This document shows positions 25,144 through 44,367 of a stretch of 45,085 nucleotides of DNA, piece after piece. Position numbers and translations under genes: made by a program. This stretch comes from an uncultured Faecalibacterium sp. (GTDB lineage: Bacteria > Bacillota > Clostridia > Oscillospirales > Ruminococcaceae), in assembly GCA_944385995.1 (NCBI GenBank), contig CALWZL010000011.1:1-45085 (forward strand), given 5' to 3'. The notes under the pieces were generated by a model. The model was not told the DNA's origin. It was given only the letters and a program-made list of their open reading frames with translations, and did no database searches. Position 1 is the first letter of the stretch. The number at the start of each line of letters is the position of its first letter.

Positions 25144-25180
25144 CCTCTTTGGTTTCCTTTCTTTCCGCAATCTTTCTCTT

Positions 25181-25209: not shown

Positions 25210-25225
25210 ATGGGGGCGGTTTCTA

Positions 25226-25255
25226 TTGACAGCACACCGCCGCCTCCCCTATACT
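25226..25255 (+). promoter_or_regulatory. Promoter of the M28 peptidase gene
   Basis: Perfect TTGACA (25226-25231), 18-bp spacer, TATACT (25250-25255). Confidence 0.75.
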
Positions 25256-25291
25256 AAAATCATCCAATCTTATGATCGAGGAGGTATCCGT

Positions 25292-27295: not shown

Positions 27296-27302
27296 AAACC
27301 CG

Positions 27303-27343
27303 AAAACCGCCCCCACAGCTTGACCTGTGAGGGCGGTTTTCTT
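27303..27343. terminator. Terminator after the M28 gene
   Basis: AAAACCGCCC and GGGCGGTTTT with an inner CACAG/CTGTG stem, 10 bases past the stop. The symmetric A and T runs also allow use by the converging reductase gene. Confidence 0.85.
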
Positions 27344-27380
27344 TACGGGTTTACGTGTTTTTCAAAAAGGCGCAGTCCGA

Positions 27381-29423
27381 TTAGACGTTGTCGATGCCGG
27401 CCATCTGCTTGATGGCCTTGATGGCGAAGGTCAGGGTGCGGCCGCAGGCGGTGCCGCCCATGACGCAGGGGTAGTTGTTCTGGAAGAAGCTGCCGGACAT
27501 GTCGCCGGTGACGTACAGGCCGGGGATGGGATCGTTGTTGTCGTCCTTGGCCTGGCAGTTGGGGGTAATGGAGATACCCTGCAGGCTGCACAGCAGGGAG
27601 GCGCCCAGCCAGCAGCCGTAGAAGGGAGCGGTCTTGATGGCGCTCAGACGGCTGGCGGGCTTGCCGAAGTCCTCGTCCTTCTGCATGTCGTACAGCTCGT
27701 TGTAGCGGGCCACGGTGGCGACGAAGGTGTCCTTGTCGGCGCCGGTGAAGCCCATCTTGTCGGCCAGCTCCTCAATGGTGTCGGCCTTCATGATGAGGCC
27801 CTCGGCCTCGTACTCCTCCAGCTGGCTCTCCATCATGCCGGGAATGTAGCGGGTCAGAGCCGAGCAGCCGATGGTGTGGAAGCGGTCCACATCCTCGCGG
27901 AAGTTGGCGTCGTGGATCATGGCGTAGACGTGGCCGGGCTGCTGGAAGGAGGCGTGGGAGGCGTTGTCGTACTCCTGGCTCTCGTTCATGAACCGCTCGC
28001 CGTGGCGGTTGACCTTCAGGAAGGGCTGGCTGCCGGGGTTGTACTGGCCCACGGTGCCGGGGAAGGCCTTGCCGCCGAAGGAAGAAGCCGACTCCACATA
28101 GCCGGAGTTGACGCCGGGGGCCACCAGGCCGCGGTCGAACAGGACGGGGGCTGCCTCGGCGTCCAGATGAGCGCCGGCCCAGATGGCGGCGCGGATGCCG
28201 TAGCCCTTGTCAGCGGGGGCATAGGAGCAGGCGGTGGTGACGCTGGTGCCCAGGGGGTCCAGCTGCTCCATCATGTAGGGGTTGCCGGCGTAGCCGCCGC
28301 AGGCCAGCAGAACGCCCTTGGCGGCGTTGATGCGGATGAAGTGGCCATCCTCGGTGCTCTGGGCAATGACGCCGGTGATCCGGCCGGTGTCGTCCTTCTC
28401 CAGCTTGGCCAGGCCGGTGTTGAAGTCGATGGAATAGCCCTTGCTCTCGACGTACTCCTGGAACACCTGGTTGCGGGGCTTTTCGGCGCTGCTGTAGTCC
28501 ACCTGCTGGACCGGGAACATCAGCTTGGTCTGGCTGACCTGGGTGTCGTCGGGCCACTTGGCCTCGTCGCCCAGGGTCAGGTTGCAGGTGTAGTTGTAGG
28601 GAGCGCTCTCCAGGATGCCGGCCACAAAGTCGTGCATGGCGGCGGACTCGTCGATCCAGGTCTTGACCACCCGCTGATCGCAGCGGCCGCCCATGGAGCG
28701 GGAAATCTCGCTCAGCAGCTCGGCGCGGTCCACCGGCTCGACGCCCTGCTTTTTGGCCTCGCTGCTGTCGATGGTGCCGTACCAGTGGCGGGTCTCCATG
28801 ACGGCGGAATTCTGCTCGATGATGCGGAAGTTCAGGCCGTTCTGGGCGGCGAAGGCGGCGGCGCACATGCCGCCGTTGCCGGCGCCCACGATGACGATAT
28901 CGGTGTCCCAGGTCTCGGTGATGGAGGCCTCGTCGATGTCGGGCTCGGTGCCCAGCCAGTCATTCTCGTCGCCGGTGGGCAGCTGAACCGAAGTCACCAC
29001 CGTCTCGCCCATGGCCTGGGCAAAGCAGCTCTTGGCGGCCTTCATGACGGCCTCGGAAGTGACGGTGGAACCCGACACGCCGTCGATCTCAGCCGAACCG
29101 GCGGCCAGCAGCTGCTTCTGCAGCTCCTCGGCCGCGGCGGCGCCGTAGGAAGCAGTTTCACCCGAGGTATCCACCACCACGTCGGTGACAGCGTTCTCGC
29201 TGAAGGTCATGGTGACCTTGACGGTGGAGGAAATGCCCTCGGCGGTACCCTCATAGGTGCCGGGGATGTAGGTGGCGCCGGCGGCCACAGAGCCTGCGCC
29301 CGAAGCTGCGCTGGATGCCCCCGAGCTGGCAGCCTGGCAGGCGGCCAGTGCGCCGGCGGTCACGCTGCCCATGGCGGCGGCAGCGGCGATCTTCAGAAAG
29401 CCTTTGCGGGAAATCTTTTCCAT
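27381..29423 (-). CDS. Secreted FMN/FAD-dependent reductase (fumarate/urocanate reductase-like)
   Basis: A 680-residue exported flavoprotein. The N-terminus has a Tat-like SRKGFLK followed by a hydrophobic stretch ending in AAC, so it is probably a Tat-exported lipoprotein. Residues about 50-135 are an FMN-binding domain with DGVSGSTVTSEAV, the motif in which Thr carries covalent FMN added by ApbE. Residues about 170-680 are an FAD_binding_2 reductase: DIVIVGAGNGGMCAAAFA, ACGGYAGNP, GSQPFLKVNRHGERFMNES, and PIPGLYVTGDMSGSFFQNN. Such enzymes reduce enoate-type acceptors outside the membrane in anaerobic respiration. The acceptor is unknown. AAGGAG precedes the ATG. The divergent LysR gene is the likely regulator. 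Codon use is highly biased, suggesting strong expression. Confidence 0.92.
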   Translation of the reverse strand: MEKISRKGFLKIAAAAAMGSVTAGALAACQAASSGASSAASGAGSVAAGATYIPGTYEGTAEGISSTVKVTMTFSENAVTDVVVDTSGETASYGAAAAEELQKQLLAAGSAEIDGVSGSTVTSEAVMKAAKSCFAQAMGETVVTSVQLPTGDENDWLGTEPDIDEASITETWDTDIVIVGAGNGGMCAAAFAAQNGLNFRIIEQNSAVMETRHWYGTIDSSEAKKQGVEPVDRAELLSEISRSMGGRCDQRVVKTWIDESAAMHDFVAGILESAPYNYTCNLTLGDEAKWPDDTQVSQTKLMFPVQQVDYSSAEKPRNQVFQEYVESKGYSIDFNTGLAKLEKDDTGRITGVIAQSTEDGHFIRINAAKGVLLACGGYAGNPYMMEQLDPLGTSVTTACSYAPADKGYGIRAAIWAGAHLDAEAAPVLFDRGLVAPGVNSGYVESASSFGGKAFPGTVGQYNPGSQPFLKVNRHGERFMNESQEYDNASHASFQQPGHVYAMIHDANFREDVDRFHTIGCSALTRYIPGMMESQLEEYEAEGLIMKADTIEELADKMGFTGADKDTFVATVARYNELYDMQKDEDFGKPASRLSAIKTAPFYGCWLGASLLCSLQGISITPNCQAKDDNNDPIPGLYVTGDMSGSFFQNNYPCVMGGTACGRTLTFAIKAIKQMAGIDNV

Positions 29424-29496
29424 GATCCTAACTCCTTTTTTTCGTTCCTTCTCAGAAAAACCTTCCTCTTCCGCACAGATTGCGGATTTCTTAACA

Positions 29497-29525
29497 ATTG
29501 TAGCGAATCCCGGCCCGATTTACAA
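29497..29525 (-). promoter_or_regulatory. Promoter of the secreted reductase
   Basis: Minus-strand TTGTAA (29520-29525), 17-bp spacer, TACAAT (29497-29502). Confidence 0.75.
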
Positions 29526-29547
29526 ATCATAGTTTTTATATTACACT

Positions 29548-29561
29548 TTAGGAAAACCTAA
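29548..29561. promoter_or_regulatory. Inverted repeat between reductase and LysR genes, likely LysR site
   Basis: TTAGG-AAAA-CCTAA is a perfect 5-bp dyad. It lies 22 bases upstream of the reductase -35 and 21 bases before the LysR start codon, next to a TATATT box (29537-29542) that could drive lysR. That is where LysR regulators usually bind to activate the neighbour and repress themselves. Confidence 0.6.
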
Positions 29562-29582
29562 TGATAAACGGAGGGTTCTCCC

Positions 29583-30488
29583 ATGACCGAACGATCTCTG
29601 GCAGGCTTTGTCAAAGTGGTGGAACTGGGCAGCTTTACCGCGGCGGCAGATGCCCTGTTTATCTCCCAGTCTGCCCTGTCCCAGCAAATCCGCACCCTGG
29701 AAAATCAGCTCAACTTCACCCTGTTTCAGCACGGCGCCCGCCAAATGACCCTGACGGCGGCCGGGCGGAGCTTTTACCCCAAGGCCAAACAAATCTTGCG
29801 GCTGTACGAAACGGCGGTGAAAGAGGGCATCGCGGTGGAACAGAACACCCGCCCGCCCCACCGGCATCTGTTTCTGGCCTGTCAGGACTCCACCGTGGCC
29901 ACCTTCTGCTATGAGCTGTTCGCCCTGACCCCCGAGCTGTGCATGGAATTTTCCCCCCTGGTCCAGTATTGCCCCAACCGCGCCGAGGTCTGGCGGGCCC
30001 TGGACACCGGGGAGGCGGACCTGTCCTTCCAGCTGGAATGCGCCGACATTGCGGCCCGGGGTCTCCACTTCACCCCCCTGCTGCATCTGCCCGAGCTCTG
30101 TTTTCCCTTCAACGTCCCGGACAGTCTCCCCCAGCAGGTCCTCTCTCTGGAGGACGCCCTCACCTGCCGGTGGATTTTTGCCTTTCCCTTCAATGAGACG
30201 CTGTATGAAACCGAGCTGATCCACCAGGCCGAAAAGCAGGGCGGCTTTGTGATCCGGCCCGGGATGGTGGAAAGCGCCGCCTACGGCCTGCCCACCCTGA
30301 TGCTGACCCCCTGCATCTATCACCGGCGGCCCAACTTTGACTCGGTTCGGATGCTTCGCTGGGGCGAAGGCTGCCGCTTCGGCATCGTAACGGCGGCCAG
30401 GCCGGACGAGACCATCTGTCAATACATCGAGGAAATCCGGCCTGTCATCCAGGCCAAACAACACCAGCTGTTCGGCGTTTTGGGCTGA
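29583..30488 (+). CDS. LysR family transcriptional regulator
   Basis: A 301-residue regulator. The N-terminal winged helix-turn-helix is standard: LAGFVKVVELGSFTAAADAL, FISQSALSQQIRTLENQLNF, LFQHGARQMTLTAAGRSF. Residues about 95-295 form the periplasmic-binding-protein-like effector domain. GGAGGG precedes the ATG. It is divergently transcribed from the secreted reductase, the typical arrangement of a LysR protein and its target; the effector may be the reductase substrate. It is followed by a clear terminator. Confidence 0.94.
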   Translation: MTERSLAGFVKVVELGSFTAAADALFISQSALSQQIRTLENQLNFTLFQHGARQMTLTAAGRSFYPKAKQILRLYETAVKEGIAVEQNTRPPHRHLFLACQDSTVATFCYELFALTPELCMEFSPLVQYCPNRAEVWRALDTGEADLSFQLECADIAARGLHFTPLLHLPELCFPFNVPDSLPQQVLSLEDALTCRWIFAFPFNETLYETELIHQAEKQGGFVIRPGMVESAAYGLPTLMLTPCIYHRRPNFDSVRMLRWGEGCRFGIVTAARPDETICQYIEEIRPVIQAKQHQLFGVLG

Positions 30489-30497
30489 ACGGTGCGC

Positions 30498-30540
30498 CCG
30501 CCGGGCTTTCTGATCTGCCAGAAGGTCCGGCGGTTTTTTG
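30498..30540 (+). terminator. Terminator of the LysR gene
   Basis: CCGCCGG (30498-30504) and CCGGCGG (30527-30533) with an inner TTCT/AGAA pairing, then T6. Confidence 0.85.
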
Positions 30541-30581
30541 CGGCATTTGGGCGGGCCTGAGGGCAGCTCGGGTCCCTTCGG

Positions 30582-30611
30582 TTGCTTTGGCGCAGGACGG
30601 TCTGTTATACT
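30582..30611 (+). promoter_or_regulatory. Promoter of the second small RNA candidate
   Basis: TTGCTT (30582-30587), 18-bp spacer, TATACT (30606-30611). No protein gene follows on this strand before the terminator. Confidence 0.55.
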
Positions 30612-30617
30612 TGCATT

Positions 30618-30768
30618 GCGGCAGGGACCTGCCAGACATCCGGGAAAGGAGCTGTCCCTTTGGGGCGCGGCGGCGTGCCGCGCCTTCCAGGAGGGCTTCC
30701 GGCTGAAGGAAAACCGAATCAAAATCAAAAAGAGACAGGCACCTTTCGGGGTGTCTGTCTCTTGTCTG
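30618..30768 (+). ncRNA. Structured small RNA candidate of about 150 nt
   Basis: Between a promoter and a strong terminator the sequence holds four consecutive hairpins: GGCAG/CTGCC (30620-30633), AAAGG/CCTTT, GGCGCGGC/GCCGCGCC (about 30664-30684, 8 bp, perfect) and the terminator. A GGAG sits inside the second hairpin, and a TTG frame follows it, so a short peptide cannot be fully excluded, but the frame shows no recognisable protein. No known RNA family is recognised. Confidence 0.45.
30731..30765. terminator. Bidirectional terminator
   Basis: AGAGACAGGCACC (30731-30743) and GGTGTCTGTCTCT (30750-30762), 13 bp (perfect), with A-run and T-containing flanks. It ends the small-RNA unit and the converging Tat-signal gene. 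Confidence 0.85.
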
Positions 30769-30784
30769 TCAGGTCAAAACGGCG

Positions 30785-31414
30785 TCACTGATACCCGATC
30801 TGGACGCTGTCGGGGGTGCATTTCTGCGGGAATTCCACCGCAAACGAATAGGTGGAATGATGGGCGTCGGCATTTGCGCCGTGTTGTTCCGGCGGGGTGA
30901 GGGTGAGGGACAGGGTGCCGGCCTCGCTGGCCATGCTGCCGGTGATGGTCAACTGGATGGTCTCCCCGGGATTGACGCCATAGGAGACACAGAGATTCTT
31001 GCCCTCGTCGGTGGACTGGTCCAGTTTGACCATCTGATCGCTCAGCACCATCTGGGTCTGAATGGCCTGACCCTGGAACGTTCCGGCGGCGCAGTTGGAG
31101 CCGTCGTAATACTCTCTCATCGGATAGCCATGGACATGATAGAGCCAGACCGGCGCCGCCGTCAGGTTGGTGACCGAAAATCCCAGCATCACCAGGCTGG
31201 AATCGGGGTTGTCCTTGTTCGCCGAACGGGAAACCGTGTCCAGGGTAATCCGCAAGTAGCCATCCTCTGCGGCAGACTGCAGGATTTTCACCTCATCCAA
31301 TCCGTTTTGTTCCTGATCGCCCTCCGCGGCAGCGGCCAGCGGAAAGGCCAGCATCAACGCGGCCGCGCCGACTCTGGCGCCGCCCTTCAAAAAAGCTCTG
31401 CGGGAAATCATCAT
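30785..31414 (-). CDS. Tat-signal exported protein, immunoglobulin-like (DUF4352/DUF5067-like)
   Basis: A 209-residue exported protein. The N-terminus carries a textbook twin-arginine signal, ISRRAFLKGG, a hydrophobic core and an AAAAA-type cleavage region before EGDQ. The mature part alternates beta strands (YLRITLDTVSRS, SLVMLGFSVTNLTAAPVWLY, GETIQLTITGSM, STYSFAVEFP), in the manner of DUF4352/DUF5067 immunoglobulin-like modules; this assignment is tentative. There are two adjacent ATGs; 31414 is used, with GGAGGG about 8 bases upstream. The frame runs on upstream with no support. Tat export suggests folding or cofactor insertion before secretion, yet no cofactor motif is visible. Confidence 0.8.
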   Translation of the reverse strand: MMISRRAFLKGGARVGAAALMLAFPLAAAAEGDQEQNGLDEVKILQSAAEDGYLRITLDTVSRSANKDNPDSSLVMLGFSVTNLTAAPVWLYHVHGYPMREYYDGSNCAAGTFQGQAIQTQMVLSDQMVKLDQSTDEGKNLCVSYGVNPGETIQLTITGSMASEAGTLSLTLTPPEQHGANADAHHSTYSFAVEFPQKCTPDSVQIGYQ

Positions 31415-31490
31415 ACTACACGCCCTCCTCGCTGCTGGATGATGGGCGGTCCTGCCCTTCACGCGGGAGAAAAAGCAGATCGCCGCCTCT

Positions 31491-31499
31491 AGTATAGCA
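31491..31499 (-). promoter_or_regulatory. Extended -10 element of the Tat-signal gene
   Basis: Minus-strand TGCTATACT, a TATACT box (31491-31496) with the TGn extension. No good -35. Confidence 0.45.
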
Positions 31500-31625
31500 C
31501 GCCGCGGCCGCTTTGGCAGGAATTCGGGACCGCATTTCGGCCAAACCCCTAAATTCATTGAACTATACAATTTTGCAGACCTGGATTTGTGGGGTTTGAC
31601 AAATGCCGTCCGCTTTTGGTTTGGC

Positions 31626-32948
31626 TCAGAACTCCACCGCCTGGCGGCTGTCAAAGCCCTGCTTCTTGAAATCCGAACAGAGATAGTCGATCCGCTCCGG
31701 CTGCACACGGATCAGGTGCATGGGATGGGGCAGCTGCCGCAGCGCTTCCAGCGGAATCTTTTGATGGGCGGCGTGGGCCTTGTAGGCCTCCGAGAAAGGC
31801 TCGATCAGCTCCGCCTTGCCGGTCACCTGCATCCCGTGGAGGGTGCCGAAGCCGTTGTACTTGTCATAGATGGCGAGGCAGACGTTGGGGTTGCGGGCCA
31901 GGCCCAGAAACTTTTTGCCGCCCTCCGAGAACATCCAGAAAGCCCCGTCGTGGTAGCTGTACTCGATGGGGGTGCAGCGGATGAACGTCCCCGCGCCGGT
32001 GGCCAGGGCGCAGGTGTTGTTGGCCCGAATGTAGGCCTCCATCGCCTGCATCAGCTGTTCCCGGGGCATTTTGACGCCGGCGGCGTCCTTTTGGTCCCAG
32101 TAGCCGGCCGCCTGTGCAAAGTCCTGCCGGGTCATCTTCCAGCCCGCAGGATGGCCGGGGACCGGCGGATAGGCCGCCTCAAAGGCCTTCAGGATGTCCA
32201 GCTGCCGGTCATCCAGGAAGTTCAGCGCCTGGCTGCGGATGTCGTCGGGAATGCCGTAGTAGGCCTCCGCCACACCCCCGCAGATGGCCGCCAGGGTATC
32301 GCTGTCCCCGCCCAGGGAGACGGCATTGCGGATGGCGTCCTCAAAGCCGGTGGACTCAAAAAATGCCTCCAGCGCCTGGGGCACCGTCCCCTGGCAGCTC
32401 TCGTCAAACCGGTAGCTGTCCCGGATGCCGTCCAGGGTAAAATCCATCCGATAGTAGTGTTTCTGGATCATCTCCCGAATCTCCGGGATGCTGCTGCCGG
32501 TCCGGGCCAGATAGATGGCCGCCGCTGTCGCCTCTGCCCCTTTCAGGCCCTCCGGGTGGTTGTGGGTCACCTCGGTGATTTTCCGGGCCAGCTCTTTGGC
32601 CTGTTCCAGGCTGGCTGCCGCAAATCCCGCCCCGCTGACCCGCATGGCCGCGCCGTTTCCAAAGCTTTGGTAGGGCTGGGGATGGTCCGAAAAAATCCAG
32701 TGGTAAAACCGCCCGCCGTAGCCGCAGTTCGGATACTGCCGCCCCACTTCCTGCATGTACTTGACCGCATTTTGGGAAAGATCGCGGTAGTCCGGCCTGC
32801 TGGCCAGAATCGCCCTGGCCAGGGCCAGGGTCATGATGCTGTCATCCGTCGGTCTGCACTGGCCGGTGAAGAGGGCAAACTCTTTGCTCTTGATGTTGTG
32901 CCACTCAAACCGGGAACCCACAATATCTCCAATGATTGCTCCCAACAT
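31626..32948 (-). CDS. ADP-ribosylglycohydrolase fused to a PNPOx-like flavin-barrel domain
   Basis: A 440-residue two-domain protein. Residues 1 to about 265 are a DraG-type ADP-ribosylglycohydrolase: GAIIGDIVGSRFE, the metal-binding TDDSIMTLALA, YPNCGYGGRF, GNGAAMRVSG and LGGDSDTLAAICG with the second metal site. Residues about 272-440 are a PNPOx-like split barrel: MTRQDFAQAAGYWDQKD, NNTCALATGAGTFIRCTPIEY, FSEGGKKFLGLARNPNVCLA, GFGTLHGMQVTGKAELIEPF. The second domain starts with what is normally the N-terminus of a free-standing protein, so this is an in-frame fusion of two complete proteins. The ATG joining them lacks a ribosome site. ATG at 32948 follows GGAGG. The reaction of the second domain is unknown (flavin, heme or F420-type cofactors occur in the fold). 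Confidence 0.9.
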   Translation of the reverse strand: MLGAIIGDIVGSRFEWHNIKSKEFALFTGQCRPTDDSIMTLALARAILASRPDYRDLSQNAVKYMQEVGRQYPNCGYGGRFYHWIFSDHPQPYQSFGNGAAMRVSGAGFAAASLEQAKELARKITEVTHNHPEGLKGAEATAAAIYLARTGSSIPEIREMIQKHYYRMDFTLDGIRDSYRFDESCQGTVPQALEAFFESTGFEDAIRNAVSLGGDSDTLAAICGGVAEAYYGIPDDIRSQALNFLDDRQLDILKAFEAAYPPVPGHPAGWKMTRQDFAQAAGYWDQKDAAGVKMPREQLMQAMEAYIRANNTCALATGAGTFIRCTPIEYSYHDGAFWMFSEGGKKFLGLARNPNVCLAIYDKYNGFGTLHGMQVTGKAELIEPFSEAYKAHAAHQKIPLEALRQLPHPMHLIRVQPERIDYLCSDFKKQGFDSRQAVEF

Positions 32949-33000
32949 ATCGTCTTGCCTCCTGTCCTGAAATCTTTCCAATGGCCGTCCTTTCCCTGCA

Positions 33001-33029
33001 AGGATAACGCCGGCGGGGCGCGGTGTCAA
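33001..33029 (-). promoter_or_regulatory. Promoter of the ADP-ribosylglycohydrolase fusion
   Basis: Minus-strand perfect TTGACA (33024-33029), 17-bp spacer, TATCCT (33001-33006). Confidence 0.7.
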
Positions 33030-33103
33030 GGGTTTGCTGCGGTTTGGGCCAAGGGCGTTTCCCGGTCCCGCGGCATCCAAAGGGTTGACCCCCGGCCGCC
33101 GCA

Positions 33104-33132
33104 TTGACGCAGGATTTCCGCCATGCTATACT
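33104..33132 (+). promoter_or_regulatory. Promoter of the ProX-AmmeMemoRadiSam operon
   Basis: TTGACG (33104-33109), 17-bp spacer, TATACT (33127-33132). Confidence 0.75.
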
Positions 33133-33180
33133 TTCGAAAAGAGCAATGTATTTTGCAGGAATGGCGGGGTGAAAACCAGA

Positions 33181-33672
33181 ATGAACAAACAAGAAATCTA
33201 CCGTTTTCTGGAAGAAAAACAGATTTGGCACCAGATCACCGAGCACGCCGCGGTCTACAATATGGAGCAGCTGGACCAGGTCCAGCTCCCCTATCCCGAC
33301 TGTGACGCCAAGAATCTCTTTGTCCGGGACGACAAGCGGCGGAATTACTACCTGATTACCGTCAAGGGAGACAAGCGGGTCAACCTGAAAGATTTCCGGC
33401 GCAGGCAGGGCACCAAGCCTCTGACCTTTGCATCGCCGGAGGAATTGGGGGAGATTCTGGGTCTGATTCCGGGGGCGGTGACCCCCTTCGGACTTCTGAA
33501 CGACCCGGAATGCCGGGTGCAGTTTTATATCGACCAGGATTTCTGGCGCTCGCCGGGGCTGATCGGCGTCCACCCCAACGACAACACCGCCACCGTCTGG
33601 CTGAAAGCCGAAGATCTGGCGGCGCTGCTGCGGGAGCACGGCACCGCCGTCCATCTGGTGGAGCTGGACTGA
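33181..33672 (+). CDS. Prolyl-tRNA editing protein (ProX/YbaK family)
   Basis: A 163-residue YbaK/ProX-fold deacylase that removes mischarged amino acids such as alanine from tRNA(Pro). Family segments are YRFLEEKQIWHQITEHAAVYNM, CDAKNLFVRDDKRRNYYLITV, the LTFASPEELGEILGLIPGAV region with the glycine turn, VTPFGLLND, and a final GLIGVHPNDNTATVWL. The catalytic-lysine region (KNLFVRD) is kept. The start at 33181 matches the family N-terminus; a GGGGTG lies upstream. The AmmeMemoRadiSam genes follow after 32 bases, and all three probably share the promoter. Confidence 0.92.
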   Translation: MNKQEIYRFLEEKQIWHQITEHAAVYNMEQLDQVQLPYPDCDAKNLFVRDDKRRNYYLITVKGDKRVNLKDFRRRQGTKPLTFASPEELGEILGLIPGAVTPFGLLNDPECRVQFYIDQDFWRSPGLIGVHPNDNTATVWLKAEDLAALLREHGTAVHLVELD

Positions 33673-33704
33673 ACCACGGCATTGCCTGAAAGGAGTGACT
33701 GTTT

Positions 33705-35093
33705 ATGCCGATGCTGGGCGCTGTTTTGACCCCTCACCCGCCGGTTCTGCTGCCCGAAGTGGGCCGGGGCCGGGAGCGGGAAATTGCCGCCACCGGCCGC
33801 GCCATGGAGGCGGCGGCCCGGGAGGCGGCCCGCTGGAACCCGGATGTCCTGATTGTGGCGTCGCCTCATACCATTTTGTACGGGGACTATTTTCACATTG
33901 CCCCCGGCAGCGGCGCATCCGGTTCCATGTCCGCCTTTGGGGCGCCCCAGGTGCGGTTTGAGGTCCGGTACGACGCCCCCCTGCGGGAGGAAATCATCCG
34001 GCAGGCCGGCGCCGCGGGGCTGGAAGCCGGCACCCTGGGTCAGCGGGACCCGTCCCTCGACCACGGCGTCCTGATTCCCCTCTACTACCTGCGGAAAGCC
34101 GGCATCTCCTGCCCCATGGTGCGGATGGGTCTGTCCGGCTTTTCGCCCCTGGACCATTACCGGCTGGGCCAGTGTGTCGCCCGGGCGGTGGAAGCGCTGG
34201 GCCGCCGGGCGGTGTTTGTGGCCAGCGGCGACCTCTCCCACAAGCTGAAGGCCGACGGCCCCTACGGCTTTGCCCCGGAAGGCCCGGCGTTCGACGAGGC
34301 CGTCACCCAAACCATGGCCTCGGGGGATTTTCTCCAGTTTTTGACCATGGACCCCGGCCTCTGCGACCGGGCCGCTGAATGCGGCCTGCGGTCCTTCCAG
34401 ATGATGGCCGGCGCCCTGGACGGGCTGGCGGTGCATCCCCAGCTTTTGAGCCACGAGGGCACCTTCGGGGTGGGGTACGCGGTGGCCCTCTTCCCGGTCA
34501 CCGGCCGGGATGCGGACCGCTGTTTTGCCCCGGCCTGTGAGGCGATCCAAAAGGCCCGGCTGGCAGCCCGCCGGGCCAATGAGGACCCCTGGGTCCGGCT
34601 GGCCCGCCTGTCCTTGGAAACCTACATCCGCACCGGCCATCCTCTGGACCGTCTGCCCGACGGCCTCCCTGCCCAGATGACCGGCCAGGCGGCGGGAACT
34701 TTTGTCTCCCTCCACGAGAACGGGCGTCTGCGGGGCTGCATCGGGACCACCGGCCCCACCGAATCCAATGTGGCCTGGGAGATTGTCCACAACGCCGTGT
34801 CGGCGGGCACCCGGGACCCCCGGTTCCCGGCTTTGCGGGCGGAGGAGCTGGACCGGCTGGAATACAGTGTGGACGTGCTGGGCCAGCCCGAGCCGGTGGA
34901 CTCCCCCGCCCAGCTGGACCCCAAACGCTATGGGGTCATCGTCAGCTATGGCCGCAGGCGGGGCCTGCTGCTGCCCGACCTGGACGGGGTGGACACGGTG
35001 GAACAACAGCTGGACATTGCCCGCCAAAAGGGCGGCATCCGGCCCGAGGACCCCTACACCCTCCAGCGGTTCAAGGTGGTGCGGCATCTATGA
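33705..35093 (+). CDS. AmmeMemoRadiSam system protein B-A fusion (MEMO-like dioxygenase fold + AMMECR1)
   Basis: A 462-residue fusion. Residues 1 to about 265 are the LigB/MEMO-like part: MLGAVLTPHPPVLLPEVGRG, IVASPHTILYGDYFHI, LDHGVLIPLYYL and FVASGDLSHKL, in which His and Asp residues would bind a metal. Residues about 280-462 are an AMMECR1 domain with the invariant core GRLRGCIGTTGPT, DPRFPALRAEELDRLEYSVDVL and GLLLPDLDGVDTVEQQL. AAGGAG precedes the ATG. The stop overlaps the radical SAM gene (ATGA). The pair defines the AmmeMemoRadiSam locus, whose biochemical role I do not know to be established. Confidence 0.92.
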   Translation: MPMLGAVLTPHPPVLLPEVGRGREREIAATGRAMEAAAREAARWNPDVLIVASPHTILYGDYFHIAPGSGASGSMSAFGAPQVRFEVRYDAPLREEIIRQAGAAGLEAGTLGQRDPSLDHGVLIPLYYLRKAGISCPMVRMGLSGFSPLDHYRLGQCVARAVEALGRRAVFVASGDLSHKLKADGPYGFAPEGPAFDEAVTQTMASGDFLQFLTMDPGLCDRAAECGLRSFQMMAGALDGLAVHPQLLSHEGTFGVGYAVALFPVTGRDADRCFAPACEAIQKARLAARRANEDPWVRLARLSLETYIRTGHPLDRLPDGLPAQMTGQAAGTFVSLHENGRLRGCIGTTGPTESNVAWEIVHNAVSAGTRDPRFPALRAEELDRLEYSVDVLGQPEPVDSPAQLDPKRYGVIVSYGRRRGLLLPDLDGVDTVEQQLDIARQKGGIRPEDPYTLQRFKVVRHL

Positions 35094-35914
35094 AAACCGT
35101 CTGTGACCTGTGCTTCCACCACTGCGCGCTGGCGGAAGGCCAGACCGGCCTTTGCCGGGCCCGGGCCAGCCGGGGCGGCCAGATCGTCCCCCTGAACTAT
35201 GGCCGTCTCACCGCGCTGGCTCTGGACCCCATCGAGAAAAAGCCGCTGCGGCGGTTTCATCCCGGCAGCATGATCCTGTCGGCGGGGAGCTTCGGCTGCA
35301 ATCTCCACTGTCCCTTCTGCCAGAACGCCGAAATTGCCGCGGCGGGGGCGGAAAGTTTCACCCGGGAGTGTTCCCCGGAACAGCTGGTGCAGACGGCCCT
35401 GGACCTGCGCGCCCGGGGAAACATCGGGGTGGCCTACACCTACAATGAGCCCCTGGTGGGCTACGAATATGTCCGGGACTGCGCCGGGCTGGTGCATCGG
35501 GCGGGGATGGTGAATGTCCTGGTGACCAACGGCACCATCGAGGCAAAGCCCTGGCAGGCCCTGCTGCCCCTGCTGGACGCGGTCAACATCGACCTGAAGG
35601 GCTTCACCCAGGGCTGGTACCGCACCCTGGGCGGCGACCTGGAAACGGTGAAGCGGTCCATTGCCCTGGCGGCCCAAAGCTGCCACGTCGAAGTCACCAC
35701 CCTGGTGGTGCCGGGTGAAAACGATTCAGACCAGGAGATGGAGTCCCTGGCCCGGTGGCTGGCTTCGGTCAGCCCTAAAATCCCCCTCCATGTCTCCCGC
35801 TTTTTCCCGCGGCACCAGATGCAGGACCGGCCGCCCACCCCGGTGGACACCGTGTATCACCTGGCCGATGTGGCCCGGAAACAGCTGCGGTACGTCTACA
35901 CCGGCAACTGCTGA
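35090..35914 (+). CDS. AmmeMemoRadiSam system radical SAM enzyme
   Basis: A 274-residue radical SAM protein related to pyruvate formate-lyase activating enzymes. The SAM-cluster motif CNLHCPFC (CX3CX2C) is in the GSFGCNLHCPFCQN segment. An N-terminal Cys-rich part, CDLCFHHCALAEGQTGLCRA, is typical of this subfamily and may bind another metal. Later motifs are AYTYNEPLVGYEY, VLVTNGTIE, VNIDLKGF and HVSRFFPRHQM. It is translationally coupled to the preceding fusion gene by a 4-base overlap, so the proteins are probably made in fixed ratio. The substrate is unknown. Confidence 0.94.
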   Translation: MKTVCDLCFHHCALAEGQTGLCRARASRGGQIVPLNYGRLTALALDPIEKKPLRRFHPGSMILSAGSFGCNLHCPFCQNAEIAAAGAESFTRECSPEQLVQTALDLRARGNIGVAYTYNEPLVGYEYVRDCAGLVHRAGMVNVLVTNGTIEAKPWQALLPLLDAVNIDLKGFTQGWYRTLGGDLETVKRSIALAAQSCHVEVTTLVVPGENDSDQEMESLARWLASVSPKIPLHVSRFFPRHQMQDRPPTPVDTVYHLADVARKQLRYVYTGNC

Positions 35915-35923
35915 ACTGCAAAC

Positions 35924-35970
35924 AACCGGAGGAGCCTGAACAGACCGTTCAGACTCCTCCGGTTTTGTTT
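35924..35970. terminator. Bidirectional terminator after the AmmeMemoRadiSam operon
   Basis: AACCGGAGGAG (35924-35934) and CTCCTCCGGTT (35954-35964) with an inner CTGAAC/GTTCAG stem, T-rich flank. It lies between converging genes. Confidence 0.88.
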
Positions 35971-35976
35971 TGAGCT

Positions 35977-36450
35977 TTAATTGAGAATCCAGACCCCCAG
36001 ATTGAGGTACCCGGCAAAGGTCACCCATACCAGGTAGGGAATCTGGAGCCGTGCGGCGGCGGTATCTGTCCCGGCAAAGACCGTTATCATCCAGAGGATG
36101 ACGCCCCAGAGGGCGGCCAGCCAGATCAGGGCCAGCCCGAACAGCTGGAACTTGAAAAAGAGCATGCTCCAAAAGAAATTCATGGCCAGCTGCAGCCCAA
36201 AAATCCACAGGCCGTGGAGCCGTTCCTGGCTGGCCGGGGTCAGGGCCACCCGGGCCGCGCTGATGCCCATCAGGGCATACAGGATGGTCCAGACCACCGG
36301 GAACACCAGCGCCGGCGGCGACAGGGGCGGCTGGACGATGCTCTCGGTGTAGATTTTGACATCCTCCCGGATCAGCCAGCCGGCCAGGCCGCCCACCGCC
36401 TCGGCCAGCAGAATCCACAAAAGATAGGTCTTGATTTTGGATCGGTTCAT
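35977..36450 (-). CDS. tspO: TspO/MBR family tryptophan-rich sensory protein
   Basis: A 157-residue membrane protein with five helices. Family motifs: the PPLSPPALVFPVVWTILYAL segment with the loop that covers the ligand pocket, LMGISAARVAL, AMNFFWSMLFF with the paired aromatic residues, and VWVTFAGYLNLGVWILN at the C-terminus. TspO proteins bind and sometimes degrade porphyrins and bind cholesterol-like compounds; the role in an anaerobe is uncertain. ATG at 36450 is chosen because GGAGGG lies 6 bases upstream. The ATG at 36456 would touch that site. Confidence 0.93.
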   Translation of the reverse strand: MNRSKIKTYLLWILLAEAVGGLAGWLIREDVKIYTESIVQPPLSPPALVFPVVWTILYALMGISAARVALTPASQERLHGLWIFGLQLAMNFFWSMLFFKFQLFGLALIWLAALWGVILWMITVFAGTDTAAARLQIPYLVWVTFAGYLNLGVWILN

Positions 36451-36517
36451 ACGCATCCCTCCACCACAGGGTATGCAGAAAGGGCGGAGGTATACACTGG
36501 GAAATATTTGGCGGCCT

Positions 36518-36970
36518 TTAATGCTTGATTGCTGCCTCTCCTGTCCACAGATTATAAACGGTCTTTCCTTGTTTTTGTGCCTCGTTGGCAAACTTGGCTG
36601 CCCCACCCCAGGAATGGGCCACATACGTCACTACATAATCGGTATGCTTCAACATCCAACGATTGCGCCAGCAGATAGCGAACCTTCTGGGAACTTTCTC
36701 AATTCCTTCAGGCAGCAAGGTACATATATTTTCTTCCTTTGATTTTCCGGGCATATAAGCCAGAACGACTGTATAGGAAATCTCCGGGTATTCAAGCGCC
36801 AATTCTCGCAAAACGGCTATAGCCATTGCATCAAACGCCCCATGATTTCCCACATAAAACACTTTGACGCCTTGCTGTTCGATCAGCTTTACCAGTAGCT
36901 CCCGCAATTTTGGCTTGACCAATGCAGGACAATCCCGATGCCCGAAGAAAGTACATCCTTTCTCTTTCAT
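36518..36970 (-). CDS. SLOG-family (DUF1273-like) Rossmann protein
   Basis: A 150-residue protein with a Rossmann-like SLOG fold by eye: strand-loop TFFGHRDCPAL, YVGNHGAFDAMA, SYTVVLAYMPGKSKEEN and KHTDYVVTYVAHSWGGAA, which parallels the nucleotide-binding GHR, G-x-x-G-x-D and Y-x-x-x-x-GG-A blocks of DUF1273/YpsA-type proteins. SLOG proteins sense or process nucleotide-derived ligands and often sit in defence or stress modules. The gene is visibly AT-richer than its neighbours, suggesting transfer. A GGAGG site precedes the ATG at 36970. It is divergent from a small XRE repressor gene. The ligand is unknown. Confidence 0.8.
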   Translation of the reverse strand: MKEKGCTFFGHRDCPALVKPKLRELLVKLIEQQGVKVFYVGNHGAFDAMAIAVLRELALEYPEISYTVVLAYMPGKSKEENICTLLPEGIEKVPRRFAICWRNRWMLKHTDYVVTYVAHSWGGAAKFANEAQKQGKTVYNLWTGEAAIKH

Positions 36971-36997
36971 ATGCTCCCCTCCAAAATAGTCTATGTG

Positions 36998-37028
36998 TAG
37001 CCTATATAGTAGCACGCATAGCCTATAT
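36998..37028. promoter_or_regulatory. Direct repeat in the SLOG/XRE promoter region, candidate operator
   Basis: TAGCCTATAT occurs at 36998-37007 and again at 37019-37028, exactly 21 bp (two helical turns) apart. One copy falls in the spacer and the other on and just past the -10 of the SLOG promoter. The divergent XRE protein is the natural candidate to bind here. Confidence 0.6.
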
Positions 37029-37035
37029 TGTACAA
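37006..37035 (-). promoter_or_regulatory. Promoter of the SLOG gene
   Basis: Minus-strand TTGTAC (37030-37035), 18-bp spacer, TACTAT (37006-37011). Confidence 0.55.
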
Positions 37036-37078
37036 CTGGATTGTTTATCCTAAAAGAAAACATCCAGGAGGAAAACAT

Positions 37079-37321
37079 ATGGAGACCGTCGCTGCCGTCC
37101 GAAATCGGATTTTGACTCTTTGCGGAGAGCGCTCCATCACCATCAATAAACTGGCCACCCTCTGCGCGCTGCCGCCGTCCAGCATCAAAAACATCCTGTA
37201 CGGCAAGAGCCAGAATCCCAAACTGTTGACCATCAAGATGATCTGTGACGGCCTGGGCATCACCCTGGGCGAGTTCTTTTCCACACCGGAGTTTGACGCG
37301 CTGGAACAGGAAATCAAATAA
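37079..37321 (+). CDS. Small XRE-family helix-turn-helix regulator
   Basis: An 80-residue protein consisting almost wholly of a Cro/C1-type helix-turn-helix: VRNRILTLCGERSITINKLA, LCALPPSSIKNILYGKSQNP, KLLTIKMICDGLGITLGEFF. There is no ligand domain. GGAGG lies 7 bases before the ATG. It is divergent from the SLOG gene across a 108-base gap holding the direct repeat, so it probably represses that gene and itself. A terminator follows directly. Confidence 0.92.
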   Translation: METVAAVRNRILTLCGERSITINKLATLCALPPSSIKNILYGKSQNPKLLTIKMICDGLGITLGEFFSTPEFDALEQEIK

Positions 37322-37324
37322 AAT

Positions 37325-37361
37325 GCCGCCCGGAGAAAGAAGCCTTTCCGGGCGGCGTTTT
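37325..37361 (+). terminator. Terminator of the XRE gene
   Basis: GCCGCCCGG (37325-37333) and CCGGGCGGC (37348-37356), then GTTTT. Confidence 0.8.
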
Positions 37362-37379
37362 GCTGGGTGTGATTGGGTT

Positions 37380-37763
37380 TCAGGTCTCGATGTCATAGGG
37401 CCAGGTGTTGATCCCGCCGAACTCATAAATCCCGGTATACCCCAGCTCTGCCAAGGCCTTGGCGGCCCGTTTGCTGCGGTTGCCGCTGCGGCAGTAGACC
37501 AGGACGGTCGTGTCCTTTTCGGGGATGACGGCGGCGGCGCTCTCCTCGTCGATGGTGCCCACCGGCAGCAGGACCGCGCCGGGAATGTGGCCGCTGTCGT
37601 ATTCGTCCTGCTCCCGTACATCCAGAATCAGGACTTCCTGGGTGTCCATCATCTCTTTGGCCTTTTCCTGGCTGATTTTCTGGTAGGCGTCGGAAGCGGC
37701 CGCCCCGCAGGCGGTCAGCATCATCAAGACAGAAAACAAGATGGGCAGAATGCGCTTTTTCAT
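37380..37763 (-). CDS. Rhodanese-like lipoprotein
   Basis: A 127-residue surface lipoprotein: signal peptide with lipobox LTAC, then a single rhodanese domain. Visible are VLILDVREQDEYDSGHIPGA and the active loop VYCRSGNRSKRAA with the catalytic Cys that carries persulfide, followed by GYTGIYEFGGINTWPYDIE. The likely activity is sulfur transfer or sulfide handling outside the membrane. GGAGG precedes the ATG, which overlaps the stop of the SGNH gene by four bases (ATGA), so they form an operon. Confidence 0.93.
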   Translation of the reverse strand: MKKRILPILFSVLMMLTACGAAASDAYQKISQEKAKEMMDTQEVLILDVREQDEYDSGHIPGAVLLPVGTIDEESAAAVIPEKDTTVLVYCRSGNRSKRAAKALAELGYTGIYEFGGINTWPYDIET

Positions 37764-38296
37764 CGAAATACCTCCTTGTACAATCCCGCCGCAAAGGCCC
37801 TGTGGCCCTGCTCGGTGAAGTGGACGCCGTCATAGGCCAGGGTGACACCCCAGGCCCCGGCATCGGCAAACCGGACCCCCAGCCGCGCCGCCAGGTCCCG
37901 GCAGCGCCGGGCAAACTCTTTGGAAGCATCCACCAAACGCTGGTCCTGGACCCATTCCCCAAAGGTCACCGGCGGCGGAGCCACCAGCAAAATCCGGTCC
38001 CGTTCCAGGTCCAGCCCGGTGAGAAACCCTTCCATCCGCCCGGCCGCAGCCGCCGGGGTACAGCCCTGCAGCAGGTCATTGGTGCCCAGCATCACCACCA
38101 GCAAACCGGTGTCCGCCGGGCAGGAAACCGGCTGCCGGGGAATCTCCCGGCCGTTCTGGCCCCGGTTCTGAATCTCCCAGCCGGTTTTCCCGGCCAGAAT
38201 GTCCACCCACCGGTTTTCGGGGCCGTATCGTCCCCCCAGCCAGGACCGCGGGTCATAGCCATAGGTATTGGAATCTCCATAACAGATAACCTTCAT
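37760..38296 (-). CDS. SGNH/GDSL family hydrolase
   Basis: A 178-residue esterase-like hydrolase without signal peptide, so probably cytoplasmic. Block I is ICYGDSNTYGYDP with the nucleophile Ser, block II NRGQNGREIPR, block III GTNDLLQG, block V DGVHFTEQGHRAFA with the catalytic Asp and His. It resembles GDSL esterases of the arylesterase/acyl-CoA thioesterase type. ATG at 38296 follows GGGAGGA. It is the first gene of the two-gene operon with the rhodanese lipoprotein. Confidence 0.92.
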   Translation of the reverse strand: MKVICYGDSNTYGYDPRSWLGGRYGPENRWVDILAGKTGWEIQNRGQNGREIPRQPVSCPADTGLLVVMLGTNDLLQGCTPAAAAGRMEGFLTGLDLERDRILLVAPPPVTFGEWVQDQRLVDASKEFARRCRDLAARLGVRFADAGAWGVTLAYDGVHFTEQGHRAFAAGLYKEVFR

Positions 38297-38337
38297 CGCT
38301 TTGTCCTCCCGTCGGGCTGTGTGTTGTCTGTACCGCC

Positions 38338-38366
38338 ATTATAGCATGACGCCGCCCGGTTCACAA
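38338..38366 (-). promoter_or_regulatory. Promoter of the SGNH-rhodanese operon
   Basis: Minus-strand TTGTGA (38361-38366), 17-bp spacer, TATAAT (38338-38343) with a TGC extension. Confidence 0.8.
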
Positions 38367-38467
38367 TGGCCCTTTGCCCCCACTGTGACCCGAGCACAGT
38401 CTTTCTTTTTCCACGGCATTGTGTTACAATATAAAAAAGAGTTTTTCTTTGAAAGGAGCGTGTTTCA

Positions 38468-38746
38468 ATGGGTGAAATTTTGGTAGAGCTCGGCTCCTTT
38501 CTGCTGAGCGAAGGGCTGTACGCCCTGCGGGAAAAGCACCCCGTCCTCTACGGTCTGGCCATGGGCTGCATTCTGGTGCTGTTCGGGGGGATGGCCGTTT
38601 TCTTTTACGCCGTGGGCGCCCCGGTGAAGGGCACCTTCATGGCAGTGTTCACCCTGGCGATGGGGGTGTTGTTTGTTTACGGCCTCCGCAAGGACCCCAA
38701 ACCCGCCCGCCGGACCTGGAACTCCTGGTTCGCCAAGCGCCGGTGA
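38468..38746 (+). CDS. Small membrane protein, two helices
   Basis: A 92-residue protein with an amphipathic start (ILVELGSFLLSEGLYALREK) and two hydrophobic helices (HPVLYGLAMGCILVLFGGMA and VKGTFMAVFTLAMGVLFVYG), ending in a basic tail (RRTWNSWFAKRR). AAAGGAG precedes the ATG. A TACAAT box (38425-38430) probably drives it, with no good -35. No family is recognised. It sits just before the sigK fragment; that position alone says nothing about function. Confidence 0.75.
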   Translation: MGEILVELGSFLLSEGLYALREKHPVLYGLAMGCILVLFGGMAVFFYAVGAPVKGTFMAVFTLAMGVLFVYGLRKDPKPARRTWNSWFAKRR

Positions 38747-38825: not shown

Positions 38826-38909
38826 TTTTTCTGCTGCCCCGGCGGCGGGCAAATTTTTGCAGCAGGACTCATACATTGAAACGAGTCTATCCAAGGGAGG
38901 TTTTTGTCC

Positions 38910-39356
38910 ATGCTGCTGCAACTGCTGCAATTTTTCTCCGCCCAGTTTCTCTACCTGGCCCTCCATCTGGAGTCGGGCAGTTTTCCCCGTCCCCTCACCC
39001 CCCGGGAGGAGGCCGCCGCCTTTGAGGCCCTCCGGGCGGGGGACCCCGCGGCCCGGGAAAAGATCATCCGCCACAACCTGCGGCTGGTGGCCCACATCGC
39101 CAAAAAATACTATGCCCTCCCCGGGGACCAGGACGATTTAATCAGCATCGGCACCATCGGCCTGATTAAGGCGGTGAACACCTTCGACAGCACCCGCCGG
39201 GCCCGGTTTTCCACCTATGCCAGCCGCTGCATTGAAAATGCGACCCTCTCGCCAAGGCCCTTTTGGAGGACCTGGCTGGAAAAGCGGGGCGGATTTTCAA
39301 GCTCCCGCCGGGGTGGAGCTTCTTTGGACAAATTGCGCCCCGTATCTTCCTTTTGA
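38910..39356 (+). pseudogene. sigK: Interrupted sporulation sigma factor K, N-terminal part only
   Basis: Residues 1-110 match SigK: a hydrophobic pro-sequence-like start, GSFPRPLTPREEAAAFEAL, HNLRLVAHIAKKYYALPGDQ, DDLISIGTIGLIKAVNTFDS and RARFSTYASRCIEN, covering sigma region 2. In intact proteins CIEN is followed by EILM and regions 3-4. Here homology stops at codon 110 (39237-39239), and 38 unrelated residues follow to a stop. This is the codon where the skin element interrupts sigK in Bacillus subtilis. GGGAGG lies 9 bases before the ATG, so the 5' end is intact. The missing half is not in this window. It may be a live skin-type split gene or a relic in a non-sporulating lineage. Confidence 0.88.
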
Positions 39357-39862
39357 GCCGCGGTGGGACCTTATTTGCACCTCTTTGCCTCCACTCGTTC
39401 CGCCTGTCTCCGGCCTGCCGGTTATCGGAAGCACGAAAACTCCATCACCTTGGCGGCAGCTATGCACAAGCAGTCACCGTACCTGAACGGCTACGATGGC
39501 TCCGCCACAGCCAAGGCCTGCTGCAGAAGGAAGCCGCCGCCCAGGCGGGCATCCCCCTTCCCCGTTACATCGACATGGAGACCGGCGCCTGTACCCACTA
39601 CCCCGCCGCCGTCATGGACAAGCTGGCGGCGCTCTATCAGGTGCCAGTAGAGGAGCTGCTGGACGAGTACAACCTTTTCCTTTACAAAGGCCAGGCCCGT
39701 CAGATCATCGCCCTGCGGGAGAAGCTGGGCCTGAGCCGCACCGCCTTTGCCCGGCAGTTCGGCATCAGTGAGCGCTCCCTGCGGGCGTGGGAGAGCGGGG
39801 AGAAGGTTATCAGCAAGGGGTGTTGGGAGAGGTATTTTCAGAAGCTGGCGGGGGTATTGTGA
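39263..39862 (+). CDS. Tandem helix-turn-helix (XRE-like) protein, start unclear, possibly 5'-truncated
   Basis: The frame opens just before the sigK break (an in-frame TGA at 39233-39235 precedes it) and runs to 39862. From about 39440 it encodes a convincing regulator: LGGSYAQAVTVPERLRWLRH, QGLLQKEAAAQAGIPLPRYI, the first XRE helix-turn-helix, then VPVEELLDEYNLFLYKGQAR, and a second helix-turn-helix IALREKLGLSRTAFARQFGI, SERSLRAWESGEKVISKGCW. No ATG or GTG with a ribosome site is found upstream of the domain; only TTG codons at 39263 and 39352 are available. The N-terminal 60 residues match nothing I know. It is either a gene cut by the same event that broke sigK or one with an unusual start. 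Confidence 0.6.
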   Translation: MEDLAGKAGRIFKLPPGWSFFGQIAPRIFLLSRGGTLFAPLCLHSFRLSPACRLSEARKLHHLGGSYAQAVTVPERLRWLRHSQGLLQKEAAAQAGIPLPRYIDMETGACTHYPAAVMDKLAALYQVPVEELLDEYNLFLYKGQARQIIALREKLGLSRTAFARQFGISERSLRAWESGEKVISKGCWERYFQKLAGVL

Positions 39863-39882
39863 CAAAACGAATCTCACCTTTA

Positions 39883-40124: not shown

Positions 40125-43428
<3,304 letters not shown>

Positions 43429-43512: not shown

Positions 43513-44367
43513 TCAGTCATCGGGTCGGGTAATACGCCGGATGTAGACTGTGAGATACATCATTTCCTCTTCAGGAATGGCAATGGCGTAGTCCTGCCAG
43601 ATCATGGCGGCAATCTTTTCAGCACAGGTGTATTCTTGGCGGTACTGTGTCCGCACCAATCCCTGCAGCTCTTGGTCATCGGTGTCAAGCATCTCGTCTT
43701 TGAACAATCGTTGAGCAAAGAACTTCAGATGTGTGATAAATCGCGTATAATGCAGGGATCTTTCGTCCAGTTCCACTCCGATGCTGTCCCTAAAGACACG
43801 CAGGATCTTTTGGATCAGACGGGTAGTTTTGGTAGCCTGATTTAAGTTATCATACTGCAGTTCACCATTGACGAGATGCATAGCAATCGCGCCAGCCTCG
43901 TCTTCCGGCAGAACAAATCCCGTCTTTTCCCGAATCTGCTCCAAGCCGTATAGCGCCACCTGGAATTCCTGCGGATAAAAGGTCCGTATCTCTGGCAGAA
44001 GAGAATTATGAAAACCAAGTCCCTTTTTCAGCCGTGTCACCGCAAAACTGATGTGATCCACCAAATCCAAGTAGACGCCCTCATCCAGCTCAGTATGCAC
44101 CAGTTCCTGAAATTTTTCCAGAATCGCCTCAACAACTTCCAGATAGACTACTGGCACATCCGCCAGCATTGCATAGCGCTGATTACCCACCACTTTGTTT
44201 TTGGGAACGAATTCCCTCACTACAATGCGGCGGTCCACTTCGGCGCCAGGATGCTGCTTGAAGCCGACTCCCTTTCCCAGCAGGACACGCTCCTGTCCCC
44301 GTTCGTTGACAGCCAGCACGACATTGTTATTGACGATACTGCGGATCCAAAGACGCTCGCTGCCCAT
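43513..44367 (-). CDS. licT: BglG/LicT family transcriptional antiterminator
   Basis: A 284-residue RNA-binding regulator. The CAT RNA-binding domain occupies residues 1-55 (RSIVNNNVVLAVNERGQERV, LLGKGVGF). Two PRD domains follow, each with conserved histidines: PRD1 around LVDHISFAVTRL and LPEDEAGAIAMHLVN, PRD2 around YTRFITHLKFFAQRL. With inducer present, the dephosphorylated form binds the RAT and melts the leader terminator. The RAT and terminator are upstream at 44424-44508. GAGGTGAC precedes the ATG at 44367. Confidence 0.96.
   Translation of the reverse strand: MGSERLWIRSIVNNNVVLAVNERGQERVLLGKGVGFKQHPGAEVDRRIVVREFVPKNKVVGNQRYAMLADVPVVYLEVVEAILEKFQELVHTELDEGVYLDLVDHISFAVTRLKKGLGFHNSLLPEIRTFYPQEFQVALYGLEQIREKTGFVLPEDEAGAIAMHLVNGELQYDNLNQATKTTRLIQKILRVFRDSIGVELDERSLHYTRFITHLKFFAQRLFKDEMLDTDDQELQGLVRTQYRQEYTCAEKIAAMIWQDYAIAIPEEEMMYLTVYIRRITRPDD

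Follow-up and report, generated by a model that had tools for sequence, protein, structure and literature searches.

A skin-like element in sigK of Faecalibacterium and the apparent splitting of its own recombinase gene

Faecalibacterium is a leading human gut commensal and is regarded as non-sporulating, and the question raised by the locus described here is what cut its sigK gene in two. The stretch under study (the window) is the entire contig C11 (CALWZL010000011.1, 45,085 nucleotides) of G000, an uncultured Faecalibacterium sp. assembly (GCA_944385995.1; 2.25 Mb, 114 contigs, 87.7% complete). It carries the 5' half of sigK, which loses its homology after codon 110, exactly where a second reading frame opens. 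The window's genome was compared with 30 further Faecalibacterium genomes, giving a genus set of 31; genomes are denoted by G-numbers and loci by L-numbers. Judged from sequence comparison, it is very probable that sigK is interrupted after codon 110 by a skin-like element whose attachment site (attP) is inside its own recombinase gene, so that both genes would have been cut together. This judgement concerns the explanation as a whole, in which positions 39236-39259 would be the left attachment site (attL) of the sigK-intervening element. Skin elements that split sigK are known; what appears to be new is that the cut of the element also splits its own recombinase gene.

The break in sigK and its attachment site

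The start codon of sigK at 38910 lies behind AAGGGAGG, with a Shine-Dalgarno sequence read at 38893-38900, and the frame is unbroken to codon 110 (39237-39239), beyond which it reads ATLSPRPF... up to the stop codon at 39354-39356. The preliminary description of this DNA had reported a SigK-like frame that is intact through codon 110 behind a ribosome site and then stops resembling SigK, and the profile searches agree with it. The best models for codons 1-110 are those of SigK (NF004471, E 1.8e-36; TIGR02846, E 1.3e-34, covering profile positions 2-111 of 227), Pfam recognises sigma region 2 only, and SigK homology ends at the core of the proposed site (39236-39239). The second frame is likewise present, with a TGA at 39233-39235 followed by an open frame up to the stop at 39860-39862, and its reported helix-turn-helix (HTH) nature is confirmed by PF13560 (1.6e-14) and PF01381 (8.1e-14), each matching two stretches. 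That this frame has no start codon holds for ATG and GTG, neither of which occurs in the first 110 codons counted from 39242, but not for TTG, which is found at codons 8 and 38.

Table 1. Positions of the features discussed in the window
Feature	Position	Strand	Basis
Promoter and ribosome site left from an earlier sigK (relic)	23659..23762	+	Alignment to the region upstream of the G014 sigK 5' half, at the position that it has in G014
15-kb block, inferred former interior of an earlier element	23774..38736		blastn synteny
Predicted sigma-E-like -10 of sigK, CATACATT	38870..38877	+	Sequence; likeness to the sigma-E -10 consensus
sigK 5' half, codons 1-110 (through region 2)	38910..39239	+	SigK profile matches; dN/dS 0.04 against G015
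Putative attL core, AAAT	39236..39239	+	attR of relatives: AAAT, AAAC or GAAT
Putative element arm of attL, GCGACCCTCTCGCCAAGGCC	39240..39259	+	Matrix of 21 other arms
Start-less C-terminal tail of serine recombinase (~76-aa conserved domain, then two HTHs)	39236..39862	+	Stop at 39860-39862; model mean pLDDT 80.2
Family 1 glycosidase, probable element cargo	40125..41534	-	Pfam; G004/G008 block
Phosphotransferase system (PTS) EIIBCA sugar transporter, probable cargo	41563..43428	-	Pfam; G004/G008 block
Antiterminator with CAT-RBD and PRD domains, probable cargo	43513..44367	-	Pfam; G004/G008 block

Other genomes of the genus break at the same codon, which argues that the break is not due to chance. 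When the sigK loci of relatives are aligned, as the preliminary description had proposed, their breaks fall at this codon with similar arms, and the split relatives show a true attachment site there, in keeping with the earlier suggestion that a skin-like element ends here or has left a scar. The split junctions read ...GAAAAT or ...GAGAAT followed by GCTAT... on the 5' side, and ...GATAGC, a core of AAAT, AAAC or GAAT, and then GA... on the 3' side. A short core with inverted-repeat arms is thus present, 13-17 of the first 18 bases being alike between the two arms of an element (five splits). Scored with a matrix of 21 arms from other loci, from which its own arm was excluded, the 20-bp arm of the window ranks in the top 3 of 90,130 positions, its own position counted, at 12.4 against 16.5 for the best position in the window; given this better-scoring position elsewhere, the arm alone is not unique. 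The arms of the window, G004 and G008 represent a diverged form. In seven of nine loci the stop of the recombinase is a junction TGA completed by codon 111 of sigK (the last T of the core plus GA).

The preliminary description had also proposed a search for the C-terminal half of SigK and for a large serine recombinase, and both were found in relatives but not in the window's own assembly. In five genus relatives the C-half shares the strand of the 5' half at a distance of 19-53 kb, and in five the recombinase is flush with the attachment site. In G005 this enzyme has Resolvase, Recombinase and Zn-ribbon domains; its NCBIfam matches, CcrB and XisF, are far below cut-off. The gene ends at the 3'-half junction in G005, G007, G014 and G029, and at the 5'-half junction in G021, where the element has the gene order of G005 inverted between the sigK halves, with a like core at both junctions. 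The possibility that element ends A and B belong to two tandem elements was dropped, as the gene order of G021 is the inverse of that of G005.

The start-less tail of the recombinase

Of this recombinase the window has the tail only. At all five loci with both element ends and a tail, one of them inverted, the recombinase reads in frame into the tail once the element ends are joined, which places attP inside the recombinase gene; at these five loci attP thus lies in a coding gene that is truncated on integration. The preliminary description had noted that two frames are cut at one base, as is expected if, as these loci indicate, this second frame is the C-terminal piece severed from the recombinase gene of the element. 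A profile made from the start-less domain of 11 further loci (among them L083, which is G007 and hence of the same genus) found a single match among the 773 six-frame segments of the window, namely the tail frame (E 5.3e-8). All 12 genus genomes with a match have the tail at the same element end.

A search with a profile of 12 tails was extended to 297 genomes of the order, of which 18 match: 14 tails adjoin a sigK 5' half, one adjoins a 3' half, one lies elsewhere (G233) and two match in the HTH only (G055, G102). G000, G007 and G104 are rows of that profile, and when they are left out 12 of 15 matches are at sigK. Internal stops occur in G007 and G305. The tail in G233 (L322) stands behind an att-like arm away from sigK, and on two viral contigs (L266, L267) a recombinase tail lies beside an apparent terminase end, judged by eye, and not at sigK.

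Serine recombinases are usually kept from undoing their own reaction by a separate directionality factor. The comparison of relatives indicates that integration cuts two genes at one point, leaving sigK as N and C halves and the recombinase as a catalytic part and a start-less tail. In the integrated state the catalytic part is of ordinary size for a recombinase, and in the window the tail lies beside sigK-N. In the mechanism that we propose, excision, probably in the mother cell, would rejoin sigK while fusing the tail to the recombinase, so that the enzyme would differ between the integrated and the circular state. It can tentatively be suggested, at somewhat less than an even chance, that the tail stops the circular form from cutting sigK again or otherwise sets the direction of the reaction. 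If so, a recombinase that is cut and rejoined by its own reaction would carry a record of its state within itself and could serve as a ready-made part in one-way DNA switches.

Both the sigK halves and the tail look to be under purifying selection. Compared with G015, sigK-N of the window has a nonsynonymous rate (dN) of 0.008 and a synonymous rate (dS) of 0.218 (dN/dS 0.04), and the C-halves of G005, G007, G014 and G021 have dN/dS values of 0.04-0.17 against the nearest intact gene, the damaged half of G029 reaching 0.20. The median ratio of nonsynonymous to synonymous differences (pN/pS) is 0.29 for the C-halves (68 pairs) versus 0.32 among the intact genes of 17 genomes (270 ordered pairs, each pair counted twice; G002, G019 and G024 are excluded, as are two pairs without synonymous change). 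For the tail, dN/dS among G000, G004 and G008 is 0.16-0.30 over the start-less 76 codons and 0.08-0.16 over the HTH part. Since the start-less residues could apparently be translated only after rejoining, the fact that they are conserved speaks for a role of the circle, although less so if an internal start were used.

Several observations weigh against the proposed element and its split recombinase. The assembly of the window (87.7% complete) yielded no SigK 3' half, and no serine recombinase of the element type was found in it at E 1e-30; with both of these lacking, the element may be dead in G000. At the same threshold, no recombinase of this type was found in G004 or G008 either. The only G000 protein above the PF00239 cut-off (C16:29518) was considered as the missing recombinase and rejected, being of another kind and 22% identical. 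Two loci, G005 and G029, have no junction stop. An intact fusion of tail and same-family recombinase was not found at the tail matches in the 297 order genomes, for which about 1.5 kb upstream was inspected and showed no recombinase, and one query with the tail gave no match in phage and plasmid collections. The closest natural counterpart of such a fusion, a 703-aa recombinase with a C-terminal HTH on viral contig L298, is distant in sequence, and unrelated HTH proteins score as well in the same search, so that the likeness counts for little. No small open reading frame (ORF) upstream of the recombinase that might be a directionality factor is common to all five relatives. The tail itself is absent from G014, where the frame stops 8 residues past the junction, and from the small element L116, and it is shortened or frame-broken in G012, G025 and G030, all of which have an intact sigK. 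Among the 20 tail loci compared, which were chosen for having a tail, the frame is 25 codons long in G025 and 35 codons in L122, G012 has lost most of the start-less part, and G030 is broken within the HTH. In the structural model of the tail, the strand part has low confidence (block means 50-75). Finally, dN/dS of the start-less part in the G005 group is 0.27-0.77 on few changes, and pairwise dN/dS is blind to the timing of selection along a branch.

These points also bear on an alternative of lesser but still appreciable probability, by which the locus is only a dead scar: sigK and sporulation would be in the course of being lost, and the break would represent the decay of a former element. 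The missing C-half and recombinase suit it, as do the stop in the C-half of G029 and the lack of any SigK half, at the thresholds used, in G027, a genome that is 99% complete. Against it, the break sits at an attachment core rather than at random, dN/dS is 0.04 for sigK-N and 0.08-0.30 for the tail (G000, G004, G008), and the assembly in which the two parts are missing is incomplete, with the contig ending 5.8 kb past the break.

It is unlikely that the right-hand frame is instead a stand-alone HTH regulator translated from an internal start, its meeting with the recombinase being coincidental. HTH regulators are common at element ends, six genus tails have an ATG at codon 74, the window has the TTG at codon 8, and the first HTH of the modelled tail, which all 50 matches listed in the structure comparison cover, resembles repressors. 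Yet no start is common to the 20 tail loci, the roughly 76 residues before the HTHs form a domain conserved across genera, and the frame is continuous with the recombinase at five of five loci, the inverted element included. An assembly chimera is highly improbable even though the window is one contig of 114, as the same junction is present in G004 and G008 and the same architecture in the one-contig genomes G021, G029 and G012, and also in G007.

Repeated splitting and repair of sigK

For each of the 31 genus genomes the state of sigK was tallied, with thresholds of E 1e-30 (5' half) and E 1e-10 (3' half) and with SigE-like matches of 35-39% excluded. A contiguous sigK alone is found in 14 (G001, G002, G009, G010, G011, G015, G016, G017, G019, G020, G022, G023, G024 and G028; that of G002 and of G024 runs into a contig end), together with an orphan 5' half in five (G003, on two contigs, G006, G012, G026 and G030) and with an orphan 3' half in one (G025). 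Five genomes have the N and C halves split on one contig and one strand, 19-53 kb apart (G005, G007, G014, G021 and G029); the C-half of G029 holds a stop and G021 has an additional 3' fragment. Only a 5' half is present in G000 and G004, a 5' half with a 3' fragment on a separate contig in G008, and only a 3' half, starting at a contig end, in G013, whereas neither half was found in G018 and G027 (the latter 99% complete). All 31 genomes, the two without SigK halves included, have the SpoIVA ATPase family.

The 3' half in G013 (C93:15013-15354) starts only 3 bases inside its contig, which looks like an assembly break at the attachment site and may reflect a mixture of integrated and excised forms. 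The orphan 3' half in G025 (C1:1085486-1085827) lies 26 kb upstream of the intact sigK and shares its junction and first 40 bases with that of G021.

The five genomes with an intact sigK and an orphan 5' half are read as cases of repair. Their two 5' halves have about 60-130 bp of upstream DNA in common, with 0-20 differences over 330 bases. A truncated recombinase stands directly before the second 5' half in G012 and G030 and before the single sigK of G010. Such a remnant was not found before the second 5' half in G003, G006 and G026, and the repair reading is weaker for these three; the tail is whole in G006 and G026. In G029 and G030, recombinase-like DNA was recognised, by eye only, before the first 5' half as well. 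That the element carried its own sigK 5' half, in the manner of a gene-restoring phage, was considered and dropped, because the truncated recombinase before the halves of G012, G030 and G010 fits a later repair better.

The window itself retains what may be a trace of an earlier round. Upstream of the present sigK, the putative promoter relic has a local alignment score of 92, with at most 46 in 1096 other alignment windows and 69 for the present sigK upstream region, which was excluded from those; no such relic was found in G015 or G001. Between the relic and sigK, the 15-kb block (23774-38736) shows gapped colinearity with relatives, lying upstream of an intact sigK in G015 and G001 and between the sigK halves in G014. 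For the window we infer an earlier split, its repair and then the present split, the direction of these events included. Across the genus, sigK seems to have gone through repeated rounds of splitting and repair, and the window would show a trace of an earlier round beside a current, possibly decaying, one.

Beyond the genus, the best 80 of at least 495 relatives of the sigK 5' half were sorted, and in 17 of them (14 recognised by script, 3 by eye) the gene breaks off at codon 110 before a similar arm; L083, counted among them, is G007. These loci belong to Gemmiger, Fournierella, Massilioclostridium, metagenome-assembled genomes (MAGs) named Ruminococcus, and others. Six of the 80 were left unsorted by the script: by eye, L113, L141 and L156 are broken, L089 and L155 are intact, and L112 runs to a contig end. 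L116 (Candidatus Alloruminococcus, 2183-5668) is a sigK element of 3.5 kb that includes a recombinase.

A wider picture can be drawn, in which we place less than even confidence. The recombinase would split itself, being short while integrated and long, with a double-HTH tail, in the excised circle; the tail would make excision one-way or reserve integration for the circle, and sigK and the recombinase would be switched together. The splitting of sigK would extend to many genera of the order and in Faecalibacterium would have been undone repeatedly by a second 5' half that breaks the recombinase. The split sigK bears on whether Faecalibacterium still runs the late sporulation switch, and the apparent repair by a duplicated 5' half would be a natural experiment on the escape from a programmed rearrangement.

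Related systems and cargo

As in the skin element of Bacillus subtilis (SpoIVCA, Skr), sigK is split by an element with a large serine recombinase and attachment sites, the 3' half lying on the far side (PMC6957869). Skr overlaps the start of spoIVCA there, whereas no counterpart was recognised in Faecalibacterium, and a start-less recombinase tail is not described for B. subtilis in the available part of that report (PMC6957869). In Clostridioides difficile (CD1231, CD1234), whose skin element is excised in the mother cell, the 3' end of the serine recombinase also adjoins a sigK half; it is the 5' half there and the 3' half in four of the five split Faecalibacterium relatives, and the portion of the study available to us does not describe a split recombinase (PMC5025042). 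The preliminary description had equated the break with the B. subtilis skin site, to which it may correspond. The sites of B. subtilis and C. difficile differ from each other (PMC6957869), and in both species excision depends on a small directionality factor in addition to the recombinase (PMC6957869, PMC5025042).

The integration-dependent immunity of mycobacteriophage BPs and related phages offers a parallel in another respect, since their attP lies in a coding gene, integration removes the C-terminus of the product and a junction TGA is made (PMC9262239). BPs splits a repressor, however, and employs a tyrosine integrase, whereas the Faecalibacterium element would split the serine recombinase itself as well as a host gene. 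When a directionality factor is fused to a serine integrase, attL x attR recombination is favoured and attP x attB recombination lowered (PMC5737554), and by analogy the tail may be likened to such a fused partner that alters direction; those fusions are man-made, whereas in nature the tail would be joined on only in the circle that excision yields. MMB025 and phiS63, both named in one report (PMC13141910), are phages or prophages inserted in sigK that have an integrase of the SpoIVCA type, but they are reported to be able to form particles, and the recombination site of MMB025 is reported to lie upstream of the integrase gene (PMC13141910). Four Faecalibacterium prophages are reported at intergenic sites (PMC11792537). 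In the accessible parts of the open-access literature, we found no report of a Faecalibacterium skin element or of a recombinase split by its own attachment site; neither is described in the available portions of PMC12946183, PMC5883640, PMC3533761, PMC8340488 and PMC11959909. Among 20 proteins scanned from the G005 element, a region in which 57 ORFs were called, none was a phage structural protein.

Beyond the tail, the window carries genes that are probably cargo of the element (Table 1), and the contig ends close to the end of a block common to G004 and G008. This block (40093-44600) is found at 93% identity only in these two of the 31 genomes, both of which have the attL type of the window, with partial matches of 65-73% in nine others. 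Between the tail and the glycosidase of G004, inside the skin-like element (L202, G004:C76, approximately 35647-42543), lies a Wadjet set made up, according to Pfam, of JetD, an SbcC-like protein of 1118 aa, a DUF4194/MksE protein and JetA; the same DNA is present in G008 (C194), and the window lacks about 7 kb at this position. Over some 12.3 kb of this cargo G004 and G008 share 99-100% identity, against 86-89% over the first 0.9 kb, sigK-N and the tail.
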